From assembly GCA_947626145.1 (NCBI GenBank), contig CANQRB010000009.1, positions 1 through 64,000 on the forward strand: 64,000 bases of DNA. The letters are read 5' to 3'. Within the stretch, counting starts at the first letter, position 1. Each line of letters begins with the position of its first letter. Under the pieces are notes generated by a model, which saw nothing but the letters and a program-made list of their open reading frames with translations, was not told the origin of the DNA and ran no database searches. Positions 39,489 to 63,565 of the stretch are shown in pieces. Both the position numbers and the translations under genes were made by a program. Source of the stretch: an uncultured Clostridia bacterium (GTDB taxonomy: Bacteria; Bacillota; Clostridia; UMGS1883).

Positions 39489-39642
39489 TGTGACCCCGCC
39501 TTTCGTTGAGATTATTATATCACAAAATAACAGTCAGTTATATATGCGAATTAATATTCATAAATATATTTAATTTTTGCTTGCATTTTATGGCCGTTCG
39601 TGCTATAATAAATGTATAATTATTGTTAAGGAGGAAAAACAA

Positions 39643-40974
39643 ATGAGCAAAATCAAAAAATGTCTCGCCGTGCTCGTGTGCGCGGCAATGGTTCTGGCAG
39701 TAATGCCGGGCGTGGCTTTGGCGGAGGAAGGAGTGACCGCCGACGGACTGGAGTATGAAGTGTATGACAACCATGTGAAGATTACCGGATATTCGGGTGA
39801 CATCACTAAAGTAAATATTCCAGTTGAGATAGAAGGTAAACCAATTACGGTCATTGATGACATGGCTTTTTATCATTGCCAAAACCTCACAGAAGTGACA
39901 ATCCCAAGCAGTGTTATTGAAATTGGGGATAAAGCGTTTGGTAATTGCCTACAACTTACAGACATAAATGTCGAAAATAATAATACTTCCTATGCGAGTC
40001 AGAATGGAATTTTATTTAATAAATCAATGACAAAAATAATTCAATATCCTTCTGGTAAAATGCAGGAATCTTATAACATTAGCCCAAACGTTACGGCCAT
40101 TGAAGAAGAGGCCTTTTATGGTTGTGACTATCTTATCAGTGTTACGATTCCGGATAGTGTTATTAAAATTGGCAATGAAGCATTTGCTGACTGTGACAGT
40201 TTGATCGAAATAAATGTTGCAAATAACAATCCTTCGTACACAAGTCAAGACGGTGTTTTATTTAATAAATTAATGACTGTATTAGTCCAATATCCCGGCG
40301 GTAATGAAAGGGAATCATATAACATCAGTCCCAGCGTTACCGACATCAGAAAAGGTGCTTTTCTAGGATGTAACGCCCAAAGCATAACAATACCCAACAG
40401 CGTAGTTAATATTGAAGATTTTGCATTCCTTAACTGCCGTCAACTTAAAAGCATTATAATACCTGATGGCGTCATAAACATTAATATCCAAGCGTTTTCC
40501 TTCTGTACCAACCTCACTGATGTATATTACGCCGGGAGCGAAGATGATTGGACGAATATTGATATTTACCCCGGCAACGCCATACTTTTGAACGCCAATA
40601 TTCATTTCAACAGCACAGGCCCGTCCCCGGAAATAAAAGTCACGGTCAACGGCGCGCCCATAGACTTTGATGTGCCGCCCATGGCAATAGACGGAACAAC
40701 AATGCTTCCGGTGCGTTACGCCCTCGAGCCTTTGGGCGCGGAGTTCGTGTGGGACGGCGAAGCTCGAACCGTCACAATCACCGCGAAGGGCAAGACCATA
40801 GTCCTCACCATCGGCAGCGCAACGGCTCTCGTGGACGGAGTTGAAAAGACCATGGCCCAGCCCGCCATGGCCAATGACGGACGGACGCTTATCCCCATCC
40901 GCTTTGTTTCGGAGGAGCTCGGCTACGACGTTCAGTGGGACAGCGAAACCAACACGGTAATAATAAACGGCTGA
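39643..40974 (+). CDS. Secreted leucine-rich-repeat (BspA-like LRR_5) protein with C-terminal copper-amine-oxidase-N-like domain
   Basis: Signal peptide; repeats LTEVTIPSSVIEIGDKAFGNC; C-term TMLPVRYALEPLGAEFVWDGEARTVTI...RTLIPIRFVSEELGYDVQWDSETNTVIING. Confidence 0.9.
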   Translation: MSKIKKCLAVLVCAAMVLAVMPGVALAEEGVTADGLEYEVYDNHVKITGYSGDITKVNIPVEIEGKPITVIDDMAFYHCQNLTEVTIPSSVIEIGDKAFGNCLQLTDINVENNNTSYASQNGILFNKSMTKIIQYPSGKMQESYNISPNVTAIEEEAFYGCDYLISVTIPDSVIKIGNEAFADCDSLIEINVANNNPSYTSQDGVLFNKLMTVLVQYPGGNERESYNISPSVTDIRKGAFLGCNAQSITIPNSVVNIEDFAFLNCRQLKSIIIPDGVININIQAFSFCTNLTDVYYAGSEDDWTNIDIYPGNAILLNANIHFNSTGPSPEIKVTVNGAPIDFDVPPMAIDGTTMLPVRYALEPLGAEFVWDGEARTVTITAKGKTIVLTIGSATALVDGVEKTMAQPAMANDGRTLIPIRFVSEELGYDVQWDSETNTVIING

Positions 40975-41158: not shown

Positions 41159-42640
41159 ATGGACACAATGGAAAAGCTTAAGCTCCTCCGTGAAGCCAAG
41201 GCCAAGGCGGCCCAGGGCGGCGGAGAGAGCGGGCAGAGGAAGTCCGGCGGCCTCACCGCAAGGGAGCGGGCCGAGGCGCTGCTTGACGGCGGCAGCTTCG
41301 TGGAGCTTGGGGCTCTGGTCTCCGCCCGGAACGGTTACACCGCCGCCGACGGAGTTGTCACGGGCTACGGCACCGTGGACGGACGGCTGGTTTACGTCTA
41401 TTCTCAGGATCCCACCGTTATGGGCGGGGCGATCGGAGAAATGAACGTGGACAAGATATGCAAGATATACGCCATGGCCGCCAGGATGGGCGCCCCCGTT
41501 GTGGGAATTTTGGATTCCTGCGGCGCGAGGATAGGTGAGGGCGTGGCCGCTCAGGCCGCCGCCGGCAAGCTCTTTGCCGCCGTCGCCAATATCAGCGGCG
41601 TTGTCCCCAATATCAGCCTTGTGCTTGGCAACTGTGCGGGCGGCGCGGCTCTTGCCGCCGAAATGAGCGACTTCGTGATAATAAATGAAAAGACCGGCCG
41701 TCTTTTCGTCAACGGCCCCTCGGTAATCGAGGCTTCCACCGGCAAAAAGGCCGCCGTGGACGGCAAGGGGAATTTCGCCGTCAGCGGCAACGCCCATTTT
41801 GCCGCCGCAAGCGATGAGCTCTGCATCGAGACCGCAAGGCTGCTGCTGAGCTACCTTCCCTCAAACAATCTGTCCGACCCGGCCGTGCTGGACTGCGCCG
41901 ACGACCTTAACCGCACAAGCGCCGCGCTGGAGAGCATAAGCGGCGATTACGATATGCGCGCGGTAATAGCCGAGGTCGTGGACGACGGAGCTTTCCTTGA
42001 GGTTCAGTCCGCCTACGCCAAGAGCGCCGTGGCCGGCTTCGCCCGTATCAACGGCGCCGCCGTGGGTATCGCCGCCAATCAGCCCTCGGTCGGGGGCGGC
42101 GTTCTCACCGGTCAGGCCGCCGAAAAGCTGGCCCGCTTCGTGCGGTTCTGTGACTGCTTCAATATCCCTGTGGTGACCTTTACCGACGTTGACGGCTTTG
42201 CCGTTGCTGCCTCCGAGGAGGAGTGGGGCCTTGCCAGAAAGGGCGCCCGACTGCTCTATGCCTTTGCCGAGGCCACCGTTCCCAAGGTAAACATCATCGT
42301 TGGCAAGGCCTGCGGCAGCAGCTACAGCGCCATGAACTCCAAGGAGCTTGGAGCCGACGTCGTTCTCGCCTGGCCCCAGGCGGAGATAGCGCCCCTTCCT
42401 TCCAAAACCGGAGTGCAGCTTCTCTATGAGGATAAGCTCCATCAGGGCAAAAAGAGGGAGGAGCTTGAAAAGGCCTATAAGGAGGCCGACGCTTCGCCCC
42501 TGATGGCCGCCGCCATGGGCGTCATCGACGACGTTATCGAACCCGCCGAGACCCGCCCCCGTCTGGCCGCCGCTCTTGAAATGCTTGCCGGCAAGCGCGT
42601 CAGCGGCGTGCCCCGCAAGCATGACAATATGCCCCTGTAA
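41159..42640 (+). CDS. mmdA: Acyl-CoA carboxyltransferase subunit (methylmalonyl-CoA decarboxylase alpha / transcarboxylase 12S type)
   Basis: GLTARERAEALLDGGSFVELGAL, NLVLGNCAGGAAL-like NISLVLGNCAGGAAL, IVGKACGSSYSAMNSKELGADVVLAWPQAEIAPL. Confidence 0.88.
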   Translation: MDTMEKLKLLREAKAKAAQGGGESGQRKSGGLTARERAEALLDGGSFVELGALVSARNGYTAADGVVTGYGTVDGRLVYVYSQDPTVMGGAIGEMNVDKICKIYAMAARMGAPVVGILDSCGARIGEGVAAQAAAGKLFAAVANISGVVPNISLVLGNCAGGAALAAEMSDFVIINEKTGRLFVNGPSVIEASTGKKAAVDGKGNFAVSGNAHFAAASDELCIETARLLLSYLPSNNLSDPAVLDCADDLNRTSAALESISGDYDMRAVIAEVVDDGAFLEVQSAYAKSAVAGFARINGAAVGIAANQPSVGGGVLTGQAAEKLARFVRFCDCFNIPVVTFTDVDGFAVAASEEEWGLARKGARLLYAFAEATVPKVNIIVGKACGSSYSAMNSKELGADVVLAWPQAEIAPLPSKTGVQLLYEDKLHQGKKREELEKAYKEADASPLMAAAMGVIDDVIEPAETRPRLAAALEMLAGKRVSGVPRKHDNMPL

Positions 42641-42652
42641 GAGGTGAACGCT

Positions 42653-43012
42653 ATGGGAAGATATGTAGATTTCGTACCCGCCGAGCTTATCGGCGAGGGT
42701 CTGGCTTACACCGTAATGGGCTTGTGCATAGTGTTCCTGATACTGATAATCATAATGTTCGTTATCAAGGCCATGGCTCTGTTCTCGGCGGAAAAGCCGG
42801 CCGGGGAAGCCGCCGCGGTGACCACTGCGGAGACCACTCCCGAGCCGGAGCCTGAGGAGGACAGTCTTGAGCTGATCGCGGTGATAACCGCCGCCGTGGC
42901 CGCCGCCATGGGCACAAGCGCCTCGTCCGTACAGATACGTTCTTATAAAAAGCTGGACGGCGGAGCCTGGAACAGGGCCGGCCGCCGGGAAGTTCTTGAC
43001 AACAGATTTTAA
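42653..43012 (+). CDS. OadG-like small membrane subunit of a sodium-pump decarboxylase
   Basis: Single N-terminal TM (GLCIVFLILIIIMFVIKAMALF), acidic linker, C-term DNRF; position in the operon. Confidence 0.82.
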   Translation: MGRYVDFVPAELIGEGLAYTVMGLCIVFLILIIIMFVIKAMALFSAEKPAGEAAAVTTAETTPEPEPEEDSLELIAVITAAVAAAMGTSASSVQIRSYKKLDGGAWNRAGRREVLDNRF

Positions 43013-43026
43013 GGAGGATTTAAGTC

Positions 43027-43380
43027 ATGAGAAAATTCATTGTAAATGTTAACGGTAATTCCTATGAAGTCGAGGTCGAGGAGGTAGAGGCGGGCGCCTC
43101 CGCTCCCGTCACCGCCCCCAAGGCCGCCCCTGCGGCCGCTCCAAAGAAGGCCGCCGCCCCTGTGGGCAACGGTACTCCCGTCAAGGCCCCCATGCCCGGC
43201 AACGTGCTTGACATCAAGGTCGCCAACGGCGCGACGGTCAAGGCCGGCGACACTCTCGTGATACTCGAGGCCATGAAGATGGAGAACGAGATCAAGGCTC
43301 CTCAGGCCGGAGTTGTGACCGTAGTGGCCGCCAAGGGCTCCACGGTCAACACCGGCGATGTTCTTGTCACTATTGCCTAA
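43027..43380 (+). CDS. Biotin carboxyl carrier protein (Ala/Pro-rich linker)
   Basis: VKAPMPGNVLDIKVANGATVKAGDTLVILEAMKMENEIKAPQAG (biotinylation motif EAMKMEN). Confidence 0.95.
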   Translation: MRKFIVNVNGNSYEVEVEEVEAGASAPVTAPKAAPAAAPKKAAAPVGNGTPVKAPMPGNVLDIKVANGATVKAGDTLVILEAMKMENEIKAPQAGVVTVVAAKGSTVNTGDVLVTIA

Positions 43381-43417
43381 GCTCGATGCAAGAACATATT
43401 AAAGGAGTTGAATTAAG

Positions 43418-44677
43418 TTGCTGAATAATTTGCTGGAAGGTTTCGGAGCCTTCTTTGCCAAGACCGGCGTGGCCGAGATCTTCGGGGGATTTTTTGCCGA
43501 GAACGGCTATAAGACCCTGATAATGCTGGCCATAGCCTGTGTGCTCCTTTACCTTGCCATTGTGAAGAAATACGAGCCTCTGCTGCTGCTGCCCATAGCC
43601 TTCGGTATGCTGCTGGCAAATCTGCCCCTTGGGGAGGTAATGCATCCGGAGTACTTCATTGATCCGGCCTACCTCATTGACGGTCACGATCTGGATATGA
43701 ACCTGATCTTCCACAAGGGCGGCCTGCTCGATCTGCTGTATCTGGGCGTCAAGCTGGGTATTTATCCGCCCCTTATCTTCCTGGGCATCGGATGTATGAC
43801 GGACTTCGGCCCCCTGATCTCCAACCCCAGGAGCATACTTTTGGGCGCGGCGGCTCAGCTGGGCGTGTTCATAACCTTTATCGGCGCCATTTTGCTGGGC
43901 GTGTTCGGCATCGGCGGCTTTGGAGCCGACGGCACCGCCGAAACCATATTTAAAGAGGCGGCCTCTATCGGCATCATTGGCGGCGCCGACGGCCCCACGG
44001 CCATTTACGTCACCAAGACCCTCGCTCCGGGGCTGCTGAGCGCCATCGCCATCGCCGCTTATTCCTATATGGCCCTCATCCCCGTTATCCAGCCTCCCAT
44101 CATGAAGGCTCTCACCACAAAGCAGGAGCGCCAGATAGTTATGGAGCAGCTCCGCCCCGTGACGCAAAAGGAGAAGATACTTTTCCCCATCATCGTTACT
44201 CTCGTGGTAGTGCTCATCGTTCCCGACGCGGCTCCGCTGGTGGGTATGCTCATGCTTGGCAACCTTATCAAGGAAAGCGGCGTGGCTGACCGTCTGTGCA
44301 AAACCGCCCAGAACGAGCTGATGAACATAGTTACCATCTTCCTGGGCGTCACCGTGGGCGCAACCGCCAAGGCCGAGACCTTCCTGACCGCAAAGACCAT
44401 ACTCATCATCGTTCTAGGTCTTGTGGCCTTCAGTGTCAGCACCGCCGGAGGACTGATCTTCGGCAAGATAATGTGCAAGGTCACCGGCGGCAAGGTAAAT
44501 CCCCTCATCGGCAGCGCCGGCGTCAGCGCCGTTCCCATGGCGGCCCGTATGTCTCAGAAGGTGGGACAGGAGGAAAATCCCGCCAACTTCCTGCTCATGC
44601 ACGCCATGGGCCCCAACGTTGCCGGAGTTATCGGCAGCGCCGTGGCCGCCGGTGTATTCCTGGCCCTGTTTGCGTAA
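43418..44677 (+). CDS. Sodium-ion-translocating decarboxylase beta subunit (OadB/MmdB/GcdB family)
   Basis: GIGCMTDFGPLISNPRSILLGAAAQLGVF, SIGIIGGADGPTAIYVTKTLAPGLLSAIAIAAYSYMALIPVIQPP. Confidence 0.96.
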   Translation: MLNNLLEGFGAFFAKTGVAEIFGGFFAENGYKTLIMLAIACVLLYLAIVKKYEPLLLLPIAFGMLLANLPLGEVMHPEYFIDPAYLIDGHDLDMNLIFHKGGLLDLLYLGVKLGIYPPLIFLGIGCMTDFGPLISNPRSILLGAAAQLGVFITFIGAILLGVFGIGGFGADGTAETIFKEAASIGIIGGADGPTAIYVTKTLAPGLLSAIAIAAYSYMALIPVIQPPIMKALTTKQERQIVMEQLRPVTQKEKILFPIIVTLVVVLIVPDAAPLVGMLMLGNLIKESGVADRLCKTAQNELMNIVTIFLGVTVGATAKAETFLTAKTILIIVLGLVAFSVSTAGGLIFGKIMCKVTGGKVNPLIGSAGVSAVPMAARMSQKVGQEENPANFLLMHAMGPNVAGVIGSAVAAGVFLALFA

Positions 44678-44713
44678 AGCGGCCACGCACAACCTTTAAA
44701 GGAGGAAATAATT

Positions 44714-46114
44714 ATGGCTAAACCTGTTAAGATAACGGAAACAATACTTCGTGACGCCCATCAGTCCCTGATCGCCACCCGTATGACAACGGAGGAAATA
44801 CTCGGCGCGGTGGAAATGCTGGACAACGTGGGCTACAACGCGCTGGAGGCCTGGGGCGGAGCCACTTTTGACAGCTGCCTCCGGTTCCTGAACGAGGATC
44901 CCTGGGAGAGACTGAGGAAGATCAAGGCCAAGGCCAAAAAGACCCCGCTGCAAATGCTGTTCCGGGGCCAGAACATCCTCGGCTACCGCCATTACGCCGA
45001 CGACGTGGTGGAGTATTTCGTGCAGAAGTCCATCGCCAACGGCATTGATATAATCAGAATTTTTGACGCCCTCAACGACGTCCGCAACCTAAAGACCGCC
45101 ATCAACGCCACAATTAAGGAAAAGGGCCATGTTCAGGCGGCCATATCCTACACCATCAGTCCCGTACACAACAACGAGTCCTTTGTGAAGCTGGCCAAAC
45201 AGCTTGAGGAGATGGGTGCCAACTCCATCTGCATCAAGGATATGGCCGGTCTGCTGACTCCGTATAACGCCTACGACCTTGTCACCGAAATGAAGAAGGC
45301 CGTAAAGATACCCATCGAGCTCCACACCCATTACACCAGCGGCGTGGCTTCAATGACCTATCTCAAGGCCATCGAGGCCGGCGTGGACATTGTGGACTGC
45401 GCCCTGTCGCCCCTTGCCATGGGTACATCACAGCCTCCCACGGAGTCCCTTGTGGCCACCCTCAAGGATACGGATTACGACACGGGCTATGACCTTAACC
45501 TTCTCAGCGATCTGGCCGACTACTTCCGTCCCCTCCGCGAAAAGTATATTAAGGAAGGACTTCTCAATCCCAAGTCCCTGGCCGTGGACGTGAACACTCT
45601 GAAATATCAGGTGCCCGGCGGAATGCTCAGCAACCTCCTTTCCCAGCTCAAGCAGCTTGGGGCCGAGGATAAGTTCCAGGAGGTGCTCAAGGAGGTTCCC
45701 CGCGTCCGCGAGGATGCCGGTTATCCCCCTCTGGTAACTCCCACAAGCCAGATAGTTGGCTCTCAGGCGGTGTTCAACGTGGTTCTCGGCGAGCGTTATA
45801 AGAACGTGACCAAGGAATTCCGCGGCCTTGTAAAAGGCGAGTACGGCAAAACCCCCGTACCCATCAGGCCCGAGTTTGTGAAGCAGATCATCGGCGACGA
45901 AAAGCAGATAACCGGCCGTCCCGCCGACAGTATCCCCAAGGAGCTCAACAAGTTCCGCAGCGAGATAAAGGAATATATCGAGCAGGACGAGGATGTGCTC
46001 AGCTATGCCCTCTTCGGTCAGGTGGCCACCAAGTTCTTCCGGTTCCGTCAGGCGGGGAAGTATAAGGTTGACGCCGAGCTGGCGGATAAGACGGACAAGG
46101 TTCATCCCATATGA
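44714..46114 (+). CDS. Oxaloacetate decarboxylase alpha / transcarboxylase 5S-type subunit lacking a biotinyl domain
   Basis: ITETILRDAHQSLIATRMTTEEIL, RIFDALNDVRNL, ELHTHYTSGVASMTYLKAIEAGVDIVDCAL; ends at 466 aa without an AMKM motif. Confidence 0.93.
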   Translation: MAKPVKITETILRDAHQSLIATRMTTEEILGAVEMLDNVGYNALEAWGGATFDSCLRFLNEDPWERLRKIKAKAKKTPLQMLFRGQNILGYRHYADDVVEYFVQKSIANGIDIIRIFDALNDVRNLKTAINATIKEKGHVQAAISYTISPVHNNESFVKLAKQLEEMGANSICIKDMAGLLTPYNAYDLVTEMKKAVKIPIELHTHYTSGVASMTYLKAIEAGVDIVDCALSPLAMGTSQPPTESLVATLKDTDYDTGYDLNLLSDLADYFRPLREKYIKEGLLNPKSLAVDVNTLKYQVPGGMLSNLLSQLKQLGAEDKFQEVLKEVPRVREDAGYPPLVTPTSQIVGSQAVFNVVLGERYKNVTKEFRGLVKGEYGKTPVPIRPEFVKQIIGDEKQITGRPADSIPKELNKFRSEIKEYIEQDEDVLSYALFGQVATKFFRFRQAGKYKVDAELADKTDKVHPI

Positions 46115-46257: not shown

Positions 46258-46286
46258 TTGACATCACCGTAAAAATATTGTATGAT
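46258..46286 (+). promoter_or_regulatory. Sigma-70-type promoter of the giant surface-protein gene
   Basis: TTGACA, 17-nt spacer, TATGAT. Confidence 0.8.
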
Positions 46287-46402: not shown

Positions 46403-46421
46403 TGAAACGGGAGGAAAAGAC

Positions 46422-49400
46422 ATGAAGACCAACTCACGAAGTTGCAGACTTCTTGCGGTCGTTATCAGCTTGTGTATGCTGTTCACCAGCATGGGCCAGC
46501 TGGCTTTTGCCGCGGACGAAACCGGTCCGGCGGAAGCGGCCGTTCAGAATGAAACACAACTTGACCCCGAAATTAATTGGGGGGGGGTACTAATACCCTG
46601 AATGAGGACGCCGCAGGCGCCGGGACAGGCGCGGACGGCGAAACAGAGCCGGCGGAAGAAACGTCGGATCAGCTTGATAACGCTGACGGTACGCTCGCAG
46701 AGGATGCGGGCGATTTTGGCGTGGAGCTGATGTCAATAGGGGATGGAGCCACACATGGGTCGGCATCGCCAACGACCATGAAGGAGTATCTTCTTGCCCA
46801 CACGGGTACCTATGTTACCGAGAAGAATTATGTAAACGGTGACAACACCTATGAGGGTAACCTTTGGACAATAGAGATTACTGAAGACAGTTCCAACACC
46901 GACTACGGTGTCAACATTAAGCTGCTCTATGACGGCGTTGATACCGGTGCGGTCGTTACCAATTTTGGTAATGCGAACGCCACAACCGGCGCACCTGTCA
47001 GCTTTACCTTTGAGCTTAACAATGAGGATGGCACGTCCAAGTGGACTACAGGTAAGGACAACACCGCAAAAGCCACCCTTGTATTTGGATGGAACGCCGC
47101 CGGTTGGATCTCATTCCCTAATAACGGCTTAAGTTTTTGGTGGGACAGAGACAGTGACGGCGCAAAGGAGCAATATAAGTTCTCCAGTCAGGTTCGTATG
47201 TACAACCAGACCAAGACACGGGAGTTCTTTAAAGGGCTTGCCGATACCTACACCATAAACGACAATTCCGGCTGGAAGATAACCGTTGACGAGAACGGTG
47301 ATCTTAAGATGACCGATGGCGATGAAATTGACGATATCTTTGTGGATTATGTCAACTTCGGCAACGCGGTCAATACATATGAGAATGTTACCTCTATTGT
47401 ATTTTCCAGTGCGAATTGGTATAACGCCAACGGCGGTACAAATAATTATAATGGTTTGACCGTAACTTGGGGAGCAAAATTTGGCGTGAACGCAAACGGT
47501 ACGACCGATACCGGGTCGCGTGCCGACGGTTTTGTGCGTAACGCCTTTATGCCCAACGGAACCATGTATAATACGGATAAAACCATACTGAAATATTTCA
47601 GAAATACTTACACCCTGTTCACGCCCGATAAGGGTGACTATTCCACGGAATATTTTAAAGGTATTGCCGATGAATACAGCGGTAAATATATTATTTCCGA
47701 TGATTACGGTAAAAATTACGCAGCCGACCTCGCGGGATGGTCTGTCGAGGTAAGGGAAGACGGCGGAGTATATGTGACATACGGCGGCCAGGGCCCATAC
47801 AAGGCGTCGTTTGTGTCCGCCCGCAACGAAAAGCATCTTTTGACAACGGAGAGCGAGGAGTGGCGCGATTCCGTTGCCACAATGTATGTTTATCTGCCGG
47901 GTTACTATACGGACGAGGCTTGCACCATTCCCGCGTATTTGACCCTTACGTGGAATATCCTCAATGGTGACAAATGGCTCGACGAGGGCGAGCCCGCCGG
48001 TTACTTCACGTTCGCCAACGCAACGCTGTACAAGAACGTAAACGGCGAGGCGGAGCTTCTTCGTACGCCGACGATCTATGCCGACCATGAAACACAGTAC
48101 GTGGCAAAGGCTAAAAATTTTCTCGCGAACTATGCCGGCACCTACTACTATAACTATGCCGGCGACACAGGCGAGATCATAGAGATTTCAGCCCAGGGCG
48201 ACGTGACGTGGGACTACTATGACGGCGAGAAAATTGTTGAACGCACGCCCACACACTACAACTTTGCCAATGCGAACAATACTAATTACAGCTATCTTCA
48301 AAGCGATGAGCCGACGCTTGAAAATCAGTGGACTGTCGGCAGTATGTACTTTACGGACGGTAATTGGTATGACAGTAACCAGAAGACTACTGCCAACGAC
48401 AGAGTTACGCTGACGATGAACTTTGACGTGACACATGAGCGCTTCAGGCCAAATCTTAATAATTATACTGTATACGGCGCGAAGGTTGGCGACGAGGCCG
48501 GCCCTGCTCTGCGTACATATAATGCATATGATTCCGCCAACGGCGGCGCTAACCGTGAGAGCTATATTCGCTTTAATAAGGCAAGTGAGTTCCTTAAGAG
48601 CATGAATATGCCGGCGGAATATACTCTTGACGACCAATCCGGTTGGAAGCTGAGCATTGCTGACGACGGACGGCCGACGCTTACCAATGGAGACGAAGCG
48701 ACGGCCGGGAATATTAAAGTCGTGGACGTCACCTATACGACTGACGCCTCGGCTGGCTATCCCGCGGTTAAGACAGGGCTTTCCAGCTTTACCTTTACCA
48801 GCTCCGACTGGCGCACCGCTGCGGGCATGGGATACCAGACAATTATACTGTCTCCGTCGCAGTATGTGAATCCGAATATAGCAACGGATAAGCCCGAGGG
48901 CTTTTTGCGCGATGTATTTTATGCGAGCAATTCAACATTTTATAATGCGGACGGAACTTTGCTCAAGGGCTTTAACGGTAATTCCATGTTTACGCCCGTT
49001 GACGTGGAGACTTTCGATCAGGAGTATTTCAAGAATTACTCCGGTACTTATGAAATCTCGGCGGACTACGGCACATATTATGACCCCGAGTTCAAGGACT
49101 GGAAGCTTGAGATCGACGAAAACGGCAACGTTACCATGCAGTATGCCGCCGACGGCCCCAAGTATAAGGCCACATTGACCACCGTGGCTAACAGGGCGCT
49201 TGTCACCGCGGATGGAGGCGATCCGGTCGATTTCCAGTATCCGTCCGCGATGTACGTTTATGTACCCGGCTACTATTCCGATGCGGCCATGACCAAGCCG
49301 GCCTACCTTGCCCTTAACTGGTACATTAATGACACCGCCCAAAATGCCAGTGTGGGCCAAGGCAGATGGAGATTTGAAATCCCCGCCGCCAACCTGTACA

Positions 49401-52400
49401 GGGCCGGAGCCGACGGAACGGCGGAGACCCTCAGAACGCCTTTGATCTATGCCGACCACACCGAAAGGTATATCGGCATGGCCAAGAGCTTCCTCAAAAA
49501 CTACGCCGGCACCTACTACTATAACTATGCCGACGCCGTTGGCGAGTATATGGAGATAACCGGCGACGGCTCCGTTAACTGGTACTGGTCCGACGGTACC
49601 ACTCTTCACAAGCGTACACCCGTACATTATAATATTGTAAACTTTAACATTAGCGGTAGTAACAACTCTGTATACAACTATATCAACGGTGAAGCTACGT
49701 ATACTAACCCGTGGCAGGTAAGCGGCGTTATTTTTGCCGACGGCGACTGGTATGCCAACGATAACAGCACTACTGCCGATGCCAGGACTACTGTTACCAT
49801 GGGCTTCAACTTTGAGTACGAAAATTTCACTGCCCCGGGGAACTACCAAATTTATTCCGCCAAGAACGGCGACGCCCCCGGCAAGCTCATTCGTACCTTT
49901 AACGCATCCGGAGTTGGCAACGGCGGCACTGACCGTGAGCGGTATATCCGTTTCGATAAGGTCAACGAATTCCTTAACGGTATGCCCAAGGAATATGCTC
50001 TTAACGATAATTCCGGCTGGAAAATAAGCATAGACGCCAACGGTCAACCCGCCCTTACCGATGGCGACATTATGACCGCCGGGAATATCAAGATAAAGTA
50101 TGTTTCGTACGTAGAGGATAGGACCGTATTCCCCTATGTCAAGACCGCTTTTTCCGGCTTTATCTTCACCAGCTCCGACTGGTACAATCAGGCCGGAACG
50201 CAGAACTATCAAACCCTCAGCCCGACTTGGAGCCGGTATGTGAGCCCATCGGCCACCTCGCCGGAGAGCCCGGAGGGCTTTGAGCGCTATGTGTTCAATA
50301 CCAACGCCACCCTTTGGAAGGGCTCTCCCGAGGTCGATGAGGACGGCAGTCCAAAGATTCACGACCAGAGGCTGAAGGTTTTCACCAATAATTTGAGTAT
50401 GTTTACCGCCGACGGCGGATATACAAACGAGTACTTCAAGGGCTATCAGGGTACTTATGAGTTGGCTCCCGGTTTTGGCGCCAACTACAACTCAATGTAC
50501 AGGAACTGGAAGATAGAAGTTGACGAGTACGGCAGCGTAACCGTTGACGAGGGAACCAACGGCGTTTATAAGGCTGTGATCGCCAACGCCAACCGCGTAC
50601 AGTTCCAGGACGCCGAGGGCAACGTGGTGGCCGACACCTATGTGCCTTCCGTAAGCCAAATGTACGTTTATCTGCCCGGTTATTACTCGGATGTTAACTG
50701 CACCTCGCCCGCGTATCTGACGCTGACATGGAATATAAACAACAATGCGGCGGCCCAGGATCATCGCGGCGACGCTTACAAGTATTTCACGGCCGGCGGC
50801 GGCTACTTCTACCAGCCCGATGCCGACGGCGACGGACAGGCCGAAAAATTTAAGGCGCCGACCCTGTACTTCATGCATACCGATTACATGAACTGGTACA
50901 AGAACTACTACAAGCAGTACGCGGGCGTATATCCCATCAACAGCCCCGGCAGCGAGGAGTACATAGAGATCAGGGACGACGGCACCCCCGTTTATCACGC
51001 CTTTGACGGAGAGGATCACGAGCTCATCTTTGTAAACATGAGCGACGTGAATAAATATGTTATGGGCGACGAGACCGTTTATCCTTCCTCCGTCGTATTT
51101 ACCGACTACGATTGGTATAACCGCGCGGATAACGAATCTACGGCAAACATTTATCCCGCCACCTATGCTTTCACTTGGGCAAACGACCAGACGGCCAACT
51201 TCACCAACGCCCGGCGCTTCACTGCGCCCAATGCGGCGGTCTACGCCCAACAGCAAAAGGGCGATGACGGCAGCTGGCTGCCTATGGAGCAGACCGAGCT
51301 TCTCCATTATTTCTCAGGTAGTATGACCTACACCTATCCCGGCGACGGTGCGCCTGCCGATAGCGACGCCTATAAGGCCTCCCTTGCCGAGATGAAGGAG
51401 TATTTGAAGACGTTCGCCTATATTCCCGATGATGAGGACGGCAGCAACGAATACACCGAATATTCCTTTAATGACAACACCATCGACTGGGGTCTCCGTA
51501 TAACCAGGGACGGCGACGTCGAGGTCGACTTTGACGATGAGTCGAACAATTTCGTTCCCGTAAGCCCCAGACCTGTCTTTGGCTATAATGCCACCCATCC
51601 CGAATACGGCCTTAACGGCCGCTATTTGAGCACTCTTCTCATAGAGGTGCCCAAGCACTATAACGACGCGGCCGCCACTCAGCCCGCTTTCATAACGCTG
51701 ACCTGGGCCAATGGCAACAGCGCCGCGATCACCACTCACTATTTCACCGCCGGCGGAACACTCTATCATAAGCCCGGCGAAGAAACGGCCCATGACAAGG
51801 TCGTACTAAGCGGTACCGCCCGCTTTGTGGCCGACGGCGAAAGTGACGAGGAGTCCAGTTATATGTCCATGTACGCCGGCGAATATTATGCCAACGACGG
51901 CTCTAACTGGAAGATGAAGGTGACCAAAGACGGCAAAGTTTTGGTTAAGTTTAACGACGACGAGGACAAGGAAGAAAACTATACCGAGGTCTCCGTTGCG
52001 CCCACCTTTACCGAAAACGCCACCTATGGCAGATATGTTTCATCGATCACCATTAATCTGCCCGGCTGGTATTCCAACACCGAGTGTACCCAGAACGCCA
52101 TGCTGACTTTGTCAGCTTTCCTGACGCAGACGGGCGCAAATCAGGACTATATCAATAACTATTTCACCATGAACGCCGCTGTTGTATATCGGCCCGGTGC
52201 GGACGGCCAGACCGGCGACCAGGCCGAGCACATGACTATCAGCACCATAGATCTTGCGTCCGAGCATGACTATGAGAACGCAAAGCAGTGGCTCAGTCAG
52301 AATAAGTATAAGGGCGTCTACCGTCCCCGCATGACCGACAAGTGGTATGCCGAGGTCGAGGACGACGGCAGCGTATACTTCTATGTTGACAACGGCAATG

Positions 52401-55400
52401 ATGAGGCCGGCAATATTCAGTATAAGAAGATACGCCCCCACATCACCCTCAGAGCCGAGTTGAACGACACGACCCACGTGGCCGGCGGCGTAAGCGGCTT
52501 CAGCGTGATGTTCCCCAACGCCCGCGCCACCCAGAACAATAGCACTTTGCAGGCCGTTGAGCAGCTTCAGAAGGTCTCCTTCGGCGCCGGTACTATAAAC
52601 GGTCAGGCTCCGGTGCTGGGCGACGAAACGGGCTACATCTATGCCGCCAATACCATGCTTTACGACGCCAAAAACGGCGACGAAGAATGGACGGTAACAA
52701 CGAACGGCAGCCCCAACTACAATAAGACCTTCACCAAGCTGTACGGCGTGGACAGGGCTTATTCCGACGAGAATAAGGAGAGGGCCAGGACGTATTTCAA
52801 GGATTACGCCGGCACCTACACCCTTGACGACCCGAACGGCGAATACAAGATTACCGTAACCGACGAAGGCGATATTTATTGGACGGACGCTGACGTTGAG
52901 GTCAATGCCGGGACGATTGCCGAGAAGAAGCTTCTCGCTTCCGACGTGGCCTTCAACAGTGACAACGTCACCCTCGCCGAGGATGGCACCCACCTGCCCA
53001 AGTCGGTATACCTGTGGTACAACGGCTACCGCAGTGCGGCCAATGATCTAACCGAGGTTGTAAACCAGTATTCGCCCACACAGCGCGGCGACATTACTTG
53101 GAACAACTATAACCGCAATGCCACGGAGGAGCTGACTTATCACAGCTTCGCCGGCGGAGCAACTCTGTACAAGGACAACGAGGGCTCGCAAAACGAAGCC
53201 GCGATTTCCATCAACGGTAACTTCCGTTATATGTTCAGCGGCGCCAATGGCGTTGCCGGGCCCATTGTGCCCGACGGTATCTACGAGACCGCCGACGAGC
53301 AGTACAAGATAGAGGTCAAGACTGCCGGCGGCAAGACCACCTACACCCTTACCACCCCCGACGGCGGCGAATACTACCTTGCCGCGTTGGGCGACGAGGA
53401 GGCCGGCACGGCTTATCTGCGCGGCAAGATAGGTGAGAACTATGTGTTCGGTACCTTCCGTGTTTCTTACGGAGCCATCGTTACCGACTCTGCGGCACAG
53501 ATAAGATATCTTGATAAGAGCGGCAACTATGTTATTATCCCTGTCAATACCCCGTTTACGAACTATGCGGCTGATGCGGGCGATGAGGGGGGAGCGATTG
53601 TTGTGGCCAATTCCGGCGAGACGGCGGAAACGGGCACTCACTACTCCAGTATGCCCAAGGCCATGGGCGCCGTTGAAAACGGCGGCACCATTTACCTTAC
53701 CGACGATATCAGAATAGGCTATATGGCCGAGGTAGCCGGTGATAAGCACGTTACCATCGACGGCCGGAACCATACCATTTTCCGTGCAAACTCCGGCGGA
53801 GTGACCTACACGGGTTCCCTGTTCAAGGTCGATAAGGGCAGCGAAATAACCCTTAAGAATGTGACCATTGACGCGGGCGGCAACTGGGGCTGGAATCATG
53901 ACGAGGTCGCCAAGATGATCCAGATCTCCACCTATGGCGTAAAGCAGCCCGGCGGCGGTACATCCTGGCCCAGCAATTCCCTTGCTTACGGCGCGAAGAA
54001 GCCTATCGTATACGGCAGCAGCAGCACGTCTACGGATGAGGACGACCGCCTCTTTGAGGATATGCCCCTCGACGATATGGAATACTTCCAGAGCGATGAG
54101 CCCTATGACCCCGGGGCGGGCATAGCGCTTATGGCCCTGACCAGAGTAGGCCCCAACATTACATCCACCAATAACCTTATTCAGGTGGGCGGTACTATCA
54201 ATCTGGAAAACACCGAGATTAAGTACATGAGCACCTATGACGAGACTAATAACCGTTACGGCGGCTACGGTGTGTTTGGCGTGACTGATGCCGGCGCTGT
54301 AATCAATCTGAACAGCGGCACCGATATCAACCACGTTGAGGCCAATGCCAACGCCCTTGTGCGCGGCATGAACAATACCACCGTAAACTTCAACGATAAC
54401 GCCAAGGTTCATGAATTCTATACCGACGGCGGCAACGGCGGCCTTATAGATATGAGAACTAACTCCACCGTTACCATCAACGACAATGCCGAGCTCTTCA
54501 ATGTGCTGGCCTACAACTGTAACGGCAGCATAATAATGGACTACGGCGGAAAGCTTGAGATCAACGGCGGCCGCATCCACCACAATTTCGGCCCCGGCGG
54601 CTCCAACAACGGCCACGGTATGACGCTGTATATCTATGGCAGCAGCGAATTCGAAATGAACGGCGGCACGGTCGACAATAATATCGGCCACGGCACAAGC
54701 ACAATATATCAGCAGCCGGGTTCAAAGCATATACAGCTTAACGGCGGCAGTATGTATGGCAACAAGAGTATGACTTATGCCGGAGCCTCCAACGGTGAGC
54801 GCACGGAAGTAAACGATGATATTTACCTCCTCAGCGACGCCACCATTGGCCCGGATATGCAGCTTGATGAAAATGTAGTTGTAAACGAGGCCGGTACCCT
54901 TACGAACTACGGAGAAATGAAGGGCAGCATCGAGGTTATGGGCCACGGCAGCGACAGCTACAATACATCCTTCCAGAACCACGGCTCCATTGACGGCGAG
55001 CTCTATCTCCAAAACGGCGCGGATGTGACCAATGGGCCGGACGGCACCATTAAGGGCAGCGTCCATGTTGAGGGTGCGACGACCGCCGGTGAAGTTGGTC
55101 AGGGCAACTTTACCAACCAGGGTGAGATCGAGGGTAACCTCGAGGTGACAAATGACGCCATAGTATTCAACAGCGGCCATATCAAGGGCGATGTTGACGT
55201 CAAGACAAACGGCGAGGTCGTACTTGACGGCGGCGGCTACATCGAGGGCTCGGTACATCTCTACCCGGGCAGCGAGCTGCGCACCAACGATCCCAGCCTG
55301 CCCGGCATTGTAAAGGGCAAGATAACCGTTGAATATAAGGACGAGCAGGATAGACAGCGCTTTGAGGATATTCTGCGGGATTCCAATATTCAGGCGGACG

Positions 55401-58400
55401 AAATTGAGTATGTGCTTCATGAGCATGACGCAACGAGGCACTATCACCGTGACGCGACCTGCTACCGCGTAGGTTATGACTACTATGTCTGCACCGGCTG
55501 TAACGAACAGTATAATTATGAGGAACTGCCGATGACGAATCATAACCTTCAGCAGAGTCACAACGATTCGGTAGGACCGTCCTGTACGGAACCCGGTAAG
55601 ACCGTATTTGCCTGCGCAAATTCCGGCTGTACGTATACCGAGGTTGTTCTCAGCGGATCGCCTACCGGACATACGCTCAGGCGTAATCCCGATTCCTATG
55701 TGGCCCCCACAACCGTTTCCGACGGCAGCTTTGTATTAGAGTGCGAGAATTGTGACTATACCGAAACCGTTACCATTCCCATGCTGTCCATCGGTGCGAC
55801 GGCACATGTTTTCCCAGACGATCCGACACCGGAAGTTAACGCAACCTGCCATTCGGAAGGCTCGGCCTATTTCGAGTGTGTAGAATGCGGACAGAGGCTT
55901 TATATAACGATACCCGCGACCGCGCACAACTACAGCGCCGAGGTCACTGAGGTGGAAGGCTCACGTGTTGAAGCCACCTGTACGGCCGACGGACACTATA
56001 TTACCCGCAGATACTGCTTGAATGACGGCTGTGAGGAATATATCGACGAAACCACCGTGCCGATTCCCGCTTTCGGACATACTTGGGGCGAGTGGGTAAT
56101 TGACGAGGCGAGCAGACGGTATTGTACCGACGATACCACTCAGACCCGTACCTGCGAGACCTGCGGTGAGACCGACACCGAGATAGCCATGGCCAAGGCC
56201 CACAGCTGGCAGCCTGTAGGCGACAGCGGTGTTGAACAGTGCTCTGTATGCGGCATGGTACGCGGCGGTTTGACCATTGATTACACGGCCAACGGCGGCA
56301 CCTTCCCGGCTGAGCTTATCGCCGCCGCGAAGAGGACCCATATGCAGGGCGAGACCGTCGAGCTTTGGACGCCCGCCAACGAGACCGTTGAAAATCAGGA
56401 AAATGTAATCAATAACCATTGGATTAAGTCCACCCCCGCAGGGCAGGCGGTATTCCTTGGCTGGAGCATGACAAATGCCGGCGAGGATCCCGTCACCGCG
56501 GACAGGGCGGCCGAGATCGAGCTCATTACTTCCGTAACAATAGCCGAGGACGAAACCGTATCGCCCAAGGTTTATGCGGTATGGGCTCCAGACATCAACA
56601 ATAACCTTGTGGCCGACTATGCGGAGACTCCCGTTACGCTCGTATATCAGACAAACGGCGGCACCGGCACCGCTCCCGAAAACATGGAGAACGTGCTTGT
56701 GGGCGGTTCTTATCCGCTTGTCACCGAATGCGACCTCAGGAAGGGCAGCGCGGTATTTGCCGGCTGGAGCACAACTCCCGTGTCCGATGATGCCGTAATT
56801 CCCAGTGACGCGAAGCTGACGCTCGCTGTTGACGGAATCGGCAACAATGTAAGCAGAGTTGAGTTTACCGCCGGAAATGACGAAAGCTTTGTTATCGACC
56901 TTGTTACCAGCCCCTACACCATTCCCGCACCTGCTGCCGGCAGCGGATATGTATATCTGTATGCGGTTTACGCCGAGGCGGATAATGAGGGCAATCCGGG
57001 CTTTGACCAAGGATACTACCATGTAGACTACTATGCTCCCGGAGCGGTTGCCCAGCCCGGTTACACGATAGACGGCGACGGCAGATTCTATACTTGCAAC
57101 GATCATCATGAGCCCGGCACTTCGGCAACGCTTATTTCCGCCGCCAGCGGCGCTATGATGATAAATAAGGATCGTGCGGTTCTTGTAGGCTGGAGCGCCG
57201 ATCCGAAGTGGAACGACAAAGATGCGACTCCGATAGCCAGCATCGCGGAAGAGGAGACCAATATTATCACCGAAGTCAACATACCTGATGATGAAAATGC
57301 CAGGGTTTATGCGGTATGGGCGATCGATGCGAATAATAACGGTCTCAGAGACTACAGGGAGGTTATGCTTACTCATACTTTGTTCAACAATGAGCAGCTT
57401 AGTGAGCGCGCTTCCGACAGCATTAATGAGCCGACCCTGCCTCTCAGAGATGAGAATGGCGATCCGATTTCAGCCTCAACCATAACAATCCGCCTGACGC
57501 AGCCGATGCCCGATCCCACAATCAATATTGTGCCGGGCAGCGAGATCGAATTCCCCACGGAGGGGCAGCTCTTTGAGGACAGCAACTTCCTTCACAGAGC
57601 GGTTCTGTACAGGACGGATGCGGACAGCGAGCATACGGACGAAAATATAGTACACCGTTATGTTCAGGTTGGCTGGAGTGAGTATTCTCACCGCGCCGCC
57701 ACCAGTCCCGCCGATGAGGCGGCCTGGGTCATCGGCTTTGGTGTGACAGAGGATAATCCCACTGACAGCCATGGCCGACTTGATACCGAAACCGGCATAT
57801 ACAAGCGGCTTATCGTAGACGACAGAGACCAGTTTGCTTATGCGGTATGGGCCATTGACGATAACAATAACGGCGTGGCCGACTACAACGAGCACACACT
57901 GACCTACGATCCAAACGGCGGCAACGGTCCCGAGGTTCCCGCCGAAACGGGCAATCTCAGGGGCGAAACCGTTGAGCTTGTGAAGAAGGACGATGTTAAG
58001 CTTCTTGTCAATGACGCGGCCTTTGCCGGCTGGAGTCTTGTAAAGCAGGACGGTGTCCTGACCGAGGCTCCTGAGGACGGAGTCATAGTTTCAAGCGTCG
58101 AGTTCGGCGACGAGGATGTTACCGTCTATGCCGTATGGGGCATTGACGCAAATGACAATGATATAGCCGACTTCTTTGAACACACATACAATGTGAAGTA
58201 TGACGGCAACGGAGGCGATGAGGACTACGTTCCCGCGGGAGTTGACAATGTCCTGCCCGGACACAGCGTTGAGCTGCCCGGCGTACCTCTGGCCGGCCTC
58301 ACAAAGGAAAAGGCCGTCCATGTGGGCTGGAGCACCGAAAAGCAGGATGTTCCCGCCGCTCATATCGAGGATCTTCCCGAGAGACTCGATGTGACGTGGA

Positions 58401-61400
58401 CCGCTCCCAATGTTGACTCCACAACGGACACTGAAAATGTAACGATTTATGCTGTCTGGGCAGCCGATGAAAATGAAAACGGCACACCCGACTACAACGA
58501 GGATGGCCTGAGTCTCAGATACGATTACAATCTTAACGGCGGTACGACGCTTACAACCGAGGGACTTACTCTTCCCAGAAACCGGTCCGCGCTTATCCCC
58601 GGTGAGACGGTAACTCTTTGGCAGCAGCCCGAGGGTGTGATTTGGGGCAAGAGGAACGGCACTATAAATTCCACCAAGGCGGTATTTGTAGGCTGGAGCC
58701 TGACTAAGCGCGAATCTTCTCTTCCCGCTACGGCGACTCAGGATGGCAGCATCATAACTGTGGATGATGAGACGATCGAGCTTGTTGACAGCGTTACTCT
58801 TGACAATGAAAATGTCACGGTTTATGCCGTATGGGCTTTTGACCGCAATAATAACGGCTGGGCCGATTATCTTGGCGATCATGACGAGCTTATTACGGTT
58901 ACCTTTGACGCGAACGGCGGTACCGGCGCCAATCCTATTCTGCCCGCACCCGCGGAATACGTCCGTGGCTCCGAGGTAAGATTCCCCGCCGGCGCATGGA
59001 GGATGAAACGCGGCGATGATGTATTCGTAGGCTGGAGTCTCACACTGATTGAGGAATCCTTCGATGCATCCGCCGATCCCGCCGAAGTTGAGGCGCTGCT
59101 CCTCGGCGGTGACAACGAGTATACTTTCAAGGTAGAGCCTGCCGACCCCGATGACAGAACCTACACGCTTTATGCGGTATATTCTACCGATGTGAACGGT
59201 GACGGCAGACCGGACTATCAGATAACGGATCCTGTCCACGTTGAGTATTATGTCAATGGCGGTCAGGTGAAGCCTGAGGCGCTTGAAGACGAGCACAGTG
59301 GTATACACGAGCCTGATTCTGACGGTATGTTCTATACCTGCCCGCATTACCATATCCCCGGCGAGGCTGCCGGTCTATATGGTGACGGCGCAAGCATTAT
59401 CTACCGTGACGGCGCTGTATTCCTTGGCTGGAGCGCGGAGCCTGCGGATCTGCTTGAATCTCTTGAGGACGAACAGGCTGTCGAGCTGCTTGATGAGCTT
59501 GTTCTGCCTGATGACATTACAGGCAACGGCAAGGTTTACGCGGTTTGGGCCGTTGACGAAAACGCCAGCGGTATGCCCGATTACAGAGAGGACCGCTTCA
59601 AGGTGCTTTACTTCCTTGTTGGCGGAAGCTTCAGTGACGGAAAGACTGCCGTACCCGACGACGCGATATACCTTCCCGGCGACACCGCCGAGCTCTGGCA
59701 GCCGGCTGACAGCAGCGAGGCTCCCGGAATGAAGGATTTCGTATTCCTCGGCTGGAGTGAGAGCCGTCAGTCGGCATTCCAGAACAAACCCGCTGACGGA
59801 GTTCTTGTGGACAGTGTTGTTATCGGAAACAACGATCATATCGTATATGCGGTTTACGCTGTGGATGAGAACAACAACGGTATTCCCGACTACAATGAAG
59901 AGGTAGTACCCACTCCCGAGGACAAATACACAGTACATTACAGCATGAACGGCGGCGAGGGCAAGGTGCCCGCCGAGTATCTTGACGCCGAGTATGCGAT
60001 GGGAGAAAAGGCGAAGCTTTGGCCTGCGGAAGCGGCGGACGTAACAAAGGACGGCGCTGTATTCCTTGGCTGGAGCGCGAAGAAGCTTGACATATTCGAG
60101 TTCGAGCCCGATGAGGGAACACTTATCACCGAGCTTGAAATAACCGGCACCAATCCTGTTGTATATGCGGTATGGGCTGTGGACGAAAACGGAAACGGCG
60201 TACCGGATTATGACGAAACAACAGAACCCACTCCCGGAGACACATACAAAGTGCATTACAGCATGAACGGCGGCGAGGGCAAGGTGCCCGCCGAGTATCT
60301 TGACGCCGAGTATGCGATGGGTGAAAAGGCGAAGCTTTGGCCTGCGGAAGTAGCGGACGTGACAAAGGACGGCGCTGTATTCCTTGGCTGGAGTGAAAGG
60401 AAACATGACGTATTTGAATTTGAGCCTGACGATGGTGTTATCATCACTGAGCTTGAAATAACAACTACTGATCCGATTGTGTATGCGGTATGGGCCGTGG
60501 ACTTCAACGGTAATGGTAAGCCCGACTACAGCAACGACAGCTTTACCCTTCATTATGACGGAAACGGTTGTGATGGAGATTCCAGACTTCCTGTGGACGT
60601 GACAGGTATACTGTCCGGTACATCGGCCAAGCTGGCAAAGGCTCCCGTTGACGGACTCACCAGAGCCGGAGCGGTCCAGCTTGGATGGAGCGCTGAAAAG
60701 CATGACGTATTTACGGCGGCTCCCGAGGCGGGAACGATCATTAATATGGTAACCGTAATGGATGGCGACATCACCGTATATGCTGTATGGGCTGTGGATG
60801 AAAACGGTAATAATTTGCCTGATTACGGAGAGATCGGACATCCGGTAACCTATCATCTCAACGGCGGCGAGGGCGAGCTTCCCACAATAACAAATGTGAG
60901 ATACCTGCCCGGCGATGAGGTGGAGCTCTGGATACCCTCCGAGGGCGACGTTGTCAGGAAGAACGCCACATTCCTTGGCTGGAGCCTTGACGAGAGAAAT
61001 ATTTATATCGATAAGGCACCGGATCCAAAGGATTATGTGACCAGTGTTATTATGGATGAAGCCGGTATAGATGTATACGCCGTATGGGCTGTTGATGGCA
61101 ACAATAACGGCAAGCCCGATTATACGGAGGATAAATATGAGGTGATCTATGACGGCAACGGCAATACTGACGGTAATGTACCTGTTGACTCAAAGGCATA
61201 TTTGCCCGGAGAAACTGCTCTGATCAGGACCGGTGCGGGTCTTGTAAGGATTCGCATAGTCGGTGAGGAAGAGTTGACGGATGTTTTCGCGGGATGGAGC
61301 CTGGAAGCCCATGAGGAGGCATTTACAGACCTGGATGCAGCCGCGGAGGTCATCGTTGCAGGTACATCGGTAGTTGTTGAAGACGATATTGTTCTCTATG

Positions 61401-63565
61401 CGGTATGGGCAGAGGATGTGAACGGCAACGGAAAGCCGGATTATGCCGAAAACAGCCATAATCTGCTGTACGACGGCAATGGCGGAACTTTTGCCCATGA
61501 CGAAGAGATACATATTGATCCCGCGTTCTATTTGTCCGGTACGGAGATTGAACTTATGGCTGCCGATATCGCCGGTATTAAGATGGAAAAGGCTGTATTC
61601 CTGGGCTGGAGCCTTGAGAAGACGGAAATATTCACCGAGAAGCCCGGAGATGAAATCGAGCTGATCGACACGGTCGTTGTCGGTGACGGGAACATCACTG
61701 TTTACGCGGTATGGGCGGTCGATGAAAACGAAAACGGGGAAGAGGATTATCTTGAGCCCGAACCCGTTCCTGAGTACGCAGTCATGTATGACATGAATGG
61801 CGGCGAAGGTACAGTCCCAGAAGAATTTGACAGAACCTGGCCTGTCGGTTCCGAAGCTGAGCTTTGGAAACCTGCGGCGGGTGAGCTGACCATGACAAAG
61901 GCCGTATTCCTTGGCTGGAGCCTTGAAAAGCAAGACGTATTCGATGCTGAACCCGAAGAAGGAATACTTATTGACGAGTACGGCATTACAATGACAGAAG
62001 ACGGAGTTGAGGTATATGCGGTATGGGCCGTTGACGAAAACGAGAACGGTACTGCCGATTATCTTGAGTCCGAGCCCGTTCCCGAATATGCCGTTGAGTA
62101 CAGCTTAAACGGCGGTGAGGGTACGGTTCCCGAGGAATTCACCGGCACATATCCCGAAGGAACTGCAATAACTCTTTGGAATCCCGCCGACGGCGCGGTG
62201 CCCACAAGAGAAAAGGCCGTATTCCTTGGCTGGAGTGCTGATGAACATGAGATATTTACCGCAGCTCCCGAAGACGGAGTTGTAATAGGCACCATTGTTG
62301 TCAACGGCGATATAACGGTTTATGCCGTATGGGCCGTTGATGAGAATGAAAACGGCGTTCCCGATTATGTGACATATACGGTTACATATGAGTGGGCCGA
62401 CGCCGAATCAGCGCCGACGAACGTTGACGTTCCCTCGGCCGAAACGGCTGCCGACGGCATGAGCTTTGAACCTGCCAATGTAAAAAACAGCGGCAGATAC
62501 ACCTTCCGCGGATGGTATACTGACCGTGAATGTACCGAAAAGTATGTGAACGGAGTCCTGACTGCCGATATTACCCTTTACGGCAGATGGACCAGAAGCA
62601 GCGGCGGAAGCGGCGGCTCAGGCGGCGGTACAGGCGGTTCCGTTTACTACACTCTCACATCTGATGTGGGTGAAGGCGGAAAGATAAATCTTGCGGAACG
62701 TTACATAGCTAACCTGCATGAAAACGTTAACTATATCTTTACACCCGATGAGGGCAAGGTTGTAGCCGATGTAATAATTGACGGTTCCAGCATAGGCGTG
62801 GTTGAAAGCTATACGTTCACCGATGTTACCGATAACCACACAATTAAAGTCGTGTTTGCGGATGCAAAGGCGGATGATAAGACCAACGAAGCTGACGGTG
62901 AATCCGGCAGACTGTTTGTTACCGATCACATAGCCTATCTGAACGGCTATCCCGGAGGATTGTTCGGCCCTGATGATCACATGACCCGGGCAGAGGCTGC
63001 ACAGATGTTCTACAATCTCCTCAGGAATAAGGACGTAGAATATACCGAGCAGTTCGACGATGTACCCGATGACGCGTGGTATGCGGTGGCTGTCAACACT
63101 CTTGCGGCTATTGGAACCATTCGTGGCGTTGCGGAGGGTCAGTTCGCACCCGATCGCAATATCACCCGCGCGGAGCTTGTCACCATGGCAATACGTTTCT
63201 TTGGCGACACCTCTGACGTTACCGTAACCGGAAACGGCGGCTTTACCGACGTTGAGGAAGGAAAGTGGTATAACGACAGTATCGCTCTCGCGGCGGAAAT
63301 GGGCTGGATAAACGGTTATGAAGACGGAAGCTTCAGACCTGATAACGAGATCAGCCGTGCCGAGGTTACAGCTATAATCAACCGTATGCTTGGCAGAAAA
63401 GCTGATTTGTCCTATATGCGCTGGCATACGGATGAACTCAGAAGCTTCTCCGACCTTAAGGAAGACTATTGGGCTTACGGTGAAATCGTTGAAGCCACAA
63501 ATGCTCACAAGTTTGTGAAGGACGGTAACGGAGAAAGCTGGCTCAGGATTGAAACAGCCGAATGA
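46422..63565 (+). CDS. Giant SLH-anchored surface protein (~5,714 aa if restored), split in this assembly by a 9-G tract at 46579-46587
   Basis: Signal peptide MKTNSRSCRLLAVVISLCMLFTSMGQLAFA in one frame reaches a stop at ~46601; the 5,662-aa ORF continues in another frame. One added G gives a continuous frame. Three SLH repeats at the C-terminus. Confidence 0.88.
46778..53240 (+). repeat. About 14 divergent tandem modules (~145-165 aa each) in the N-terminal half of the giant protein, partly organised as three-module super-repeats of ~1.37 kb
   Basis: Recurrent (F/Y)xxYAGTY...W(K)(I/L)x(V/I)xxDGxV...SxxFTxxDWY... GCCGGCACCTACTACTATAACTATGCCG occurs at 48134 and again 1,371 bp later at 49505. 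Confidence 0.8.
53620..55330 (+). other. Predicted parallel beta-helix (pectate-lyase/adhesin-like) segment of the giant protein
   Basis: GGTIYLTDDIRIGYMAEVAGDKHVTIDGRNHTIFRANSGG, repeated NNTTVNFNDNAKVHEF, NSTVTINDNAELFNV, NHGSIDGELYLQNGADVTN. Confidence 0.7.
55423..56262 (+). other. Cys/His-rich segment with seven CxxC- or CxxxxC-type knuckles in the giant protein
   Basis: CTGC, CANSGC, CENC, CVEC, CLNDGC, CETC, CSVC with intervening H-rich turns (NHN, AHNYS, FGHTW, AHSW). Confidence 0.75.
56270..62400 (+). repeat. 18 tandem ...(V/A)xxGWS...VYAVWA-DxNxNGxxDY modules
   Basis: Consensus Y-x-x-NGG...F(L/A/V)GWS...(V/L)YAVWA(V/I)DxNxNGxxDYxE; counted by eye from the translated ORF. Confidence 0.9.
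59929..60490 (+). repeat. Recently duplicated module pair, 318-bp unit
   Basis: CAGCATGAACGGCGGCGAGGGCAAGGTGCCCGCCGAGTATCTTGACGCCGAGTATGCGATGGG at 59941 and 60259, nearly identical for ~140 bp. Confidence 0.9.
62905..63430 (+). other. Three S-layer-homology (SLH) repeats at the C-terminus of the giant protein
   Basis: YLNGYPGGLFGPDDHMTRAEAAQMFYNLL; IRGVAEGQFAPDRNITRAELVTMAIRF; INGYEDGSFRPDNEISRAEVTAIINRML. Confidence 0.95.

Follow-up and report, generated by a model that had tools for sequence, protein, structure and literature searches.

The locus raises the question of whether a run of nine Gs, which parts the signal peptide of a giant surface protein from its body, is a switch, a recoding site, an error in the assembly or the scar of a dead gene. 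We analyzed the locus within the 64,000-nt stretch of DNA that is called the window here, and compared it with the remaining genome and with genomes of related Clostridia.

The giant surface-protein gene at the G9 tract

An earlier note on this DNA had described nine consecutive Gs, an open reading frame from ATG 46422 that stops just past them and a downstream surface-protein frame of about 5,660 codons whose sole start is a TTG bordering the run. As evident from the exact count, the run is nine nucleotides long; the short frame ends in ...EINWGGVLIP with its stop codon at 46599-46601, the TTG was found to be the only start of the frame at 46577-63565, and this frame encodes a body of 5,662 aa with S-layer homology (SLH) domains. 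The reading frames on the two sides of the tract disagree at G9 and meet at other lengths. In particular, one extra G would fuse the signal-peptide frame with the body, and the fused length of 5,714 codons, obtained by arithmetic, agrees with that proposed earlier for a tract of ten. The assembly carries the OFF state, in which the frame is closed after 59 codons. The signal peptide was called by eye from a basic N-terminus, a hydrophobic core and AFA-A, as were the signal peptides at the other loci described below. A promoter and a ribosome-binding site are present at the signal-peptide frame (Table 1), which shows that the break sits in a gene built for expression. The domain content of the body, together with the signal peptide, indicates that the gene closed at G9 encodes an exported, wall-anchored giant protein.

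Table 1. Features of the surface-protein locus (window positions) and the six G9 tracts of the genome
Feature	Position	Strand	Evidence or remark
Sigma-70-type promoter TTGACA-17-TATGAT of the surface-protein gene	46258..46286	+	11/12 consensus positions
Shine-Dalgarno GGGAGG, 7 nt 5' of ATG 46422	46409..46414	+	sequence
Signal-peptide ORF, 59 aa, MKTNSRSCRLLAVVISLCMLFTSMGQLAFAADE...	46422..46601	+	stop directly past the G run
5' flank CCCCGAAATTAATT	46565..46578	+	flank comparison; fits the A/T-rich flank common to G tracts of the genus
Open frame, 5,662 aa, giant surface-protein body	46577..63565	+	ORF reading
G9 tract, proposed slippage switch (tract 1)	46579..46587	+	sequence; run length exactly nine; window gene closed at G9
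TA dinucleotide	46588..46589	+	run scan; present after 6/6 G9 tracts of the genome
N-terminal beta-rich domain	46772..48028	+	52-55% in two homologues; further copies along the protein at 25-37% identity
Listeria-Bacteroides repeat (Flg_new), best of two	62375..62581	+	PF09479, E 5e-42
S-layer homology domain, best of three near the C-terminus, cell-wall anchor	63242..63367	+	PF00395, E 2e-26
Tract 2, C9 in the signal peptide of a surface gene	C9:99751		neighbour F5/8-type-C/CBM paralogue; readable
Tract 3, just upstream of a TTGACA/TAAAAT promoter	C13:47334		signal-peptide protein of 1,045+ aa with LamG and Big_4
Tract 4, just 5' of the -35 of a sugar transferase gene	C14:19093		Bac_transf, E 2e-67
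Tract 5, in a phage-tail-like gene	C5:37878		interrupted
Tract 6, in a DUF4367 gene adjoining a sigma factor gene	C2:92509		membrane-regulator gene; readable

No relatives of the protein were found in the PDB by sequence, and its N-terminal domain gave no confident fold match. Two homologues of the first 507 codons of the body were found in GTDB genomes (L064 and L065), both of which are rabbit-gut metagenome-assembled genomes labelled Clostridia / Monoglobus. The L064 homologue (49% identity) contained G9-TA 42 codons after its ATG, in the corresponding variable linker that follows the signal peptide; its tract is in frame, and 3,898 further codons are open. The L065 homologue (50%) has a gene start without a tract and a G9 about 170 bp upstream of its ATG, and a second surface gene of the same genome contains a G11 in a matching upstream region. 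The GatB identity of these genomes is 44-53%, about the distance of other families of the order, so the tract has either persisted or arisen anew across large distances. The giant gene was absent from the same-genus genomes searched, and no homologue of the surface protein was found in the viral contigs searched.

The gene directly follows carboxyltransferase, Na+-pumping oxaloacetate decarboxylase beta and PYC_OADA-type genes (41159-46114), and a BspA-type leucine-rich-repeat protein with a copper amine oxidase N-terminal domain is encoded nearby (39577-40974). Elsewhere, the window encodes a multi-domain GH88 protein with LamG/CBM96/Big_4 domains (2914-8178) and an alpha-L-arabinofuranosidase (31491-33782), which together suggest the use of plant polysaccharides.

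Long G tracts in the genome and its relatives

The second-longest run of G or C in the window is only 6 nt. Throughout the 2.44-Mb genome, runs of exactly 7, 8 and 9 occurred eight, one and six times, respectively, and none exceeded 9, whereas the number of runs of at least 9 expected by chance was 0.14 from a crude extrapolation of the 7-to-8 decay and about 1 from the G-G step. The genome thus holds homopolymers of mutable length beyond chance, and the excess at exactly 9, together with the gap to the next-longest run in the window, argues that the window G9 did not arise by chance. Additionally, all six G9 runs were followed by TA, whereas among 287 runs of 5-7 G from the genus it followed 11. 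That all six are exactly 9 is slightly odd, since relatives also have tracts of 10 and 11. Three other species have retained the promoter tract of the sugar transferase, with lengths of G9, G9 and G10. The label phage-tail-like for tract 5 is drawn from one resembling stretch, both halves of the gene being without a Pfam match, and no viral homologues of this interrupted gene were found. In the F5/8-paralogue gene, the frame breaks a second time some 330 nt past the C9 tract (L113:2922-2952), and this gene may be in decay.

The family-wide scan revealed 65 G runs of at least 9, 40 of which are followed by TA; these genomes contain the reversed pattern ATG9 four times. In the genus, the tracts comprised 30 G9, 17 G10 and 2 G11, and when C precedes and TA follows, G7 and G8 are less common than G9. 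The affected genes mostly act at the surface or in restriction-modification, and the gain or loss of one unit would switch a reading frame or a promoter. In particular, Acyl_transf_3 genes bear tracts at six loci (L088, L092, L094, L096, L097 and L117) and in other genomes (L133 and L193), as do genes for GT4 (L091) and GT2 (L135) glycosyltransferases, an epimerase (L095), an SDR protein (L093), a hexapeptide transferase (L096) and a polysaccharide-synthesis protein (L127). Among the relatives' promoters, the tract lies between -35 and -10 in L121, L125 and L134 and just 5' of -35 in L115, L085, L116 and L126. A G9 was also found inside a type I restriction specificity gene (Methylase_S; L045:1501-1509), and another stands 8 nt 5' of the ATG start codon of a C5 DNA methylase gene (L132:1501-1509); both loci are candidate phasevarions in Clostridia.

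A tract in a signal peptide or shortly after it was found in the window gene, L064 and about ten other loci (L076, L098, L113, L143, L146, L176, L177/L188, L182/L183 and L196/L206), and both readable and unreadable states occur among these other loci. Counted by hand, with the signal-peptide frame used where one exists, about 19 coding tracts were in frame and 13 were out of frame. Length differences between orthologues were found across species at loci other than the window gene, namely the sugar-transferase promoter (G9, G9, G9 and G10) and an acyltransferase. The latter is the clearest case: the gene is open at G9 in L096 and shifted at G10 in L117, the leader peptides are identical (MINSVEATKNDKSYN) and the bodies are 53% identical, which is the identity through which L117 was assigned. 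In L196 and L206, from two species, a near-identical signal peptide with an internal C9 is attached to different mature proteins, as if an export cassette had been exchanged. Three genomes (G044, G078 and G131) contain several copies each of an intergenic repeat of about 200 bp, AGAGAAGG...ATGA...CTCCGACATTTGTC-G9-TA..., which ends in a strong terminator-like hairpin (L172-L175, L179, L190-L192, L195, L199, L201, L203 and L205). This repeat had no match in Rfam and could be a small ORF or an RNA element.

Shared flanks of the tracts

Upon alignment of 38 non-redundant tracts of the genus, the fraction of A at positions -10 to -7 was 0.59 compared with a local background of 0.30 (p 4e-13, with positions picked after inspection and columns taken as independent), and all 38 had C or T at position -1. 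Among the tracts of f18/g25, an unrelated second genus of Clostridia, 12 of 12 had C at -1, and -9 and -8 were A or T only; these sites were retrieved by the TA pattern, and their TA is therefore not independent. TC-G9-TA occurred in 12 of 392 genomes of the class, all from this genus or the f18/g25 family, with zero reversed hits. One flank conserved everywhere is an idea of limited reach, as A enrichment was absent from the other genera of the window's own family (0.25 vs 0.30 background).

Several accounts of the flanks were considered and set aside. The TA cannot be the mere start of a TATAAT -10 box, because coding tracts have it too. Codon usage is insufficient to explain the A-rich flank; the motif runs antisense to the gene in L113 and L196/L206, which indicates a feature of the DNA and not a codon preference. 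A recombination site is unsupported, since tract lengths differ between copies and no paired inverted copies were seen. The promoter tracts had no Rfam match nearby, and a scan of viral contigs for A5-N4-C-G9-TA gave 20 scattered matches that were judged mostly unrelated. Conserved flanks are not predicted by plain slippage, and the flank may be selected for raising slippage or may mark a binding site. We tentatively raise, as a rather doubtful possibility, that the tracts are part of a longer sequence element (roughly AAAWTnnTC-G9/10-TA in the genus and W-rich...C-G9-TA in the second Clostridia genus), found within and outside coding DNA and on both strands relative to genes. Such an element may be recognized by a dedicated factor, or be selected as a cis-element, that creates, maintains or tunes the hypermutable tract.

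A proposed phase-variable switch weighed against its rivals

The reading that we favor is that the G9 tract is a simple-sequence contingency switch, to which we assign a probability of roughly 0.84 from sequence comparison. The affected gene classes and the length distribution match known contingency loci. Phase variation was also the reading favored in the earlier note, and the comparison strengthens it through the homologue whose matching tract occupies the equivalent position and is in frame, the readable and unreadable signal-peptide tracts and the acyltransferase that is open at G9 and shifted at G10. The same loci bear on the view that the ribosome or RNA polymerase slips steadily on the run and yields some full-length protein from unchanged DNA. 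Nine consecutive Gs could in principle cause slippage, and the frame required at G9 is the -1 frame. A programmed frameshift should act in the same direction at all sites, but the shift needed in the window, L112, L135 and L146 is opposite to that needed in L091, L092, L093, L095, L045, L098, L143 and L090, many loci are already in frame and recoding can have no effect at those tracts that are located in promoters. The varying direction and the promoter tracts make steady recoding improbable, although low-level slippage may be superposed on phase variation.

That G9 is an assembly or sequencing error, with another true length and a gene that is always ON, has a slightly smaller chance of being correct. 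Homopolymers of 9 are error-prone in some technologies; against this, the downstream frame is intact over 17 kb, two other G9/C9 tracts of the same genome are in frame as called and frame breaks at such tracts recur across independent genomes. An error confined to the window site is unlikely, and since a long tract here would still be mutable, it would alter the stated OFF state and not the nature of the locus. A gene fixed in the OFF state as a pseudogene would fit its absence from the same-genus genomes searched, but no decay of the frame was found past the break: 5,662 stop-free codons with SLH anchors, the promoter and the ribosome-binding site are all intact, and we regard this explanation as very improbable.

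Under phase variation, slipped-strand mispairing in replication would frequently add or remove one G. At lengths where the two frames join, about 5,700 residues would be exported and anchored in the wall, and at the remaining lengths the short peptide only would be made. Some cells of the population would then have the surface protein and others would lack it, presumably in a reversible manner, which could be useful against phages, host antibodies and changing glycans. The tract would be one of a small set of switches in this genome and its relatives that act on surface proteins, surface-glycan enzymes, restriction-modification genes and promoters.

The best-known examples of homopolymer phase variation are those of Campylobacter, Helicobacter, Neisseria and Haemophilus, and surface-glycan enzymes are typical targets of the Campylobacter poly-G/C contingency loci. 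Neisseria opc is switched by a homopolymer in its promoter spacer; the relatives' tracts within or next to promoters are similar, whereas the window tract lies in coding sequence. Phase-variable restriction-modification genes are known as phasevarions, and similar tracts were found at the Methylase_S and C5 DNA methylase genes, in relatives only and not in the window genome. In Campylobacter, poly-G/C tracts peak at 9 (53%) and 10 (26%), 77% of them are in ORFs, the G is mostly on the coding strand and several loci are present per genome (PMC6321876). The Clostridia tracts resemble these in their peak at 9 and 10, in lying mostly inside ORFs with the G on the coding strand and in numbering several per genome. 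In contrast to Campylobacter, the Clostridia tracts are often in or adjoining the signal peptide of large surface proteins, where switching is proposed from sequence, and those of the genus have a common A/T-rich 5' flank and a 3' TA.

The literature search returned no description of G-tract switches in Monoglobus-type Clostridia. Our results place the same layout in one lineage of uncultured gut Clostridia, with G9-11 at surface proteins, capsule-type enzymes, restriction specificity and promoters. The shared flanks offer a testable handle on the determinants of homopolymer mutability. At the window locus, a single base would decide the export of a wall-anchored protein of 5,700 residues, and strain comparisons or metagenomes that score such genes as absent or broken would misread a switch.
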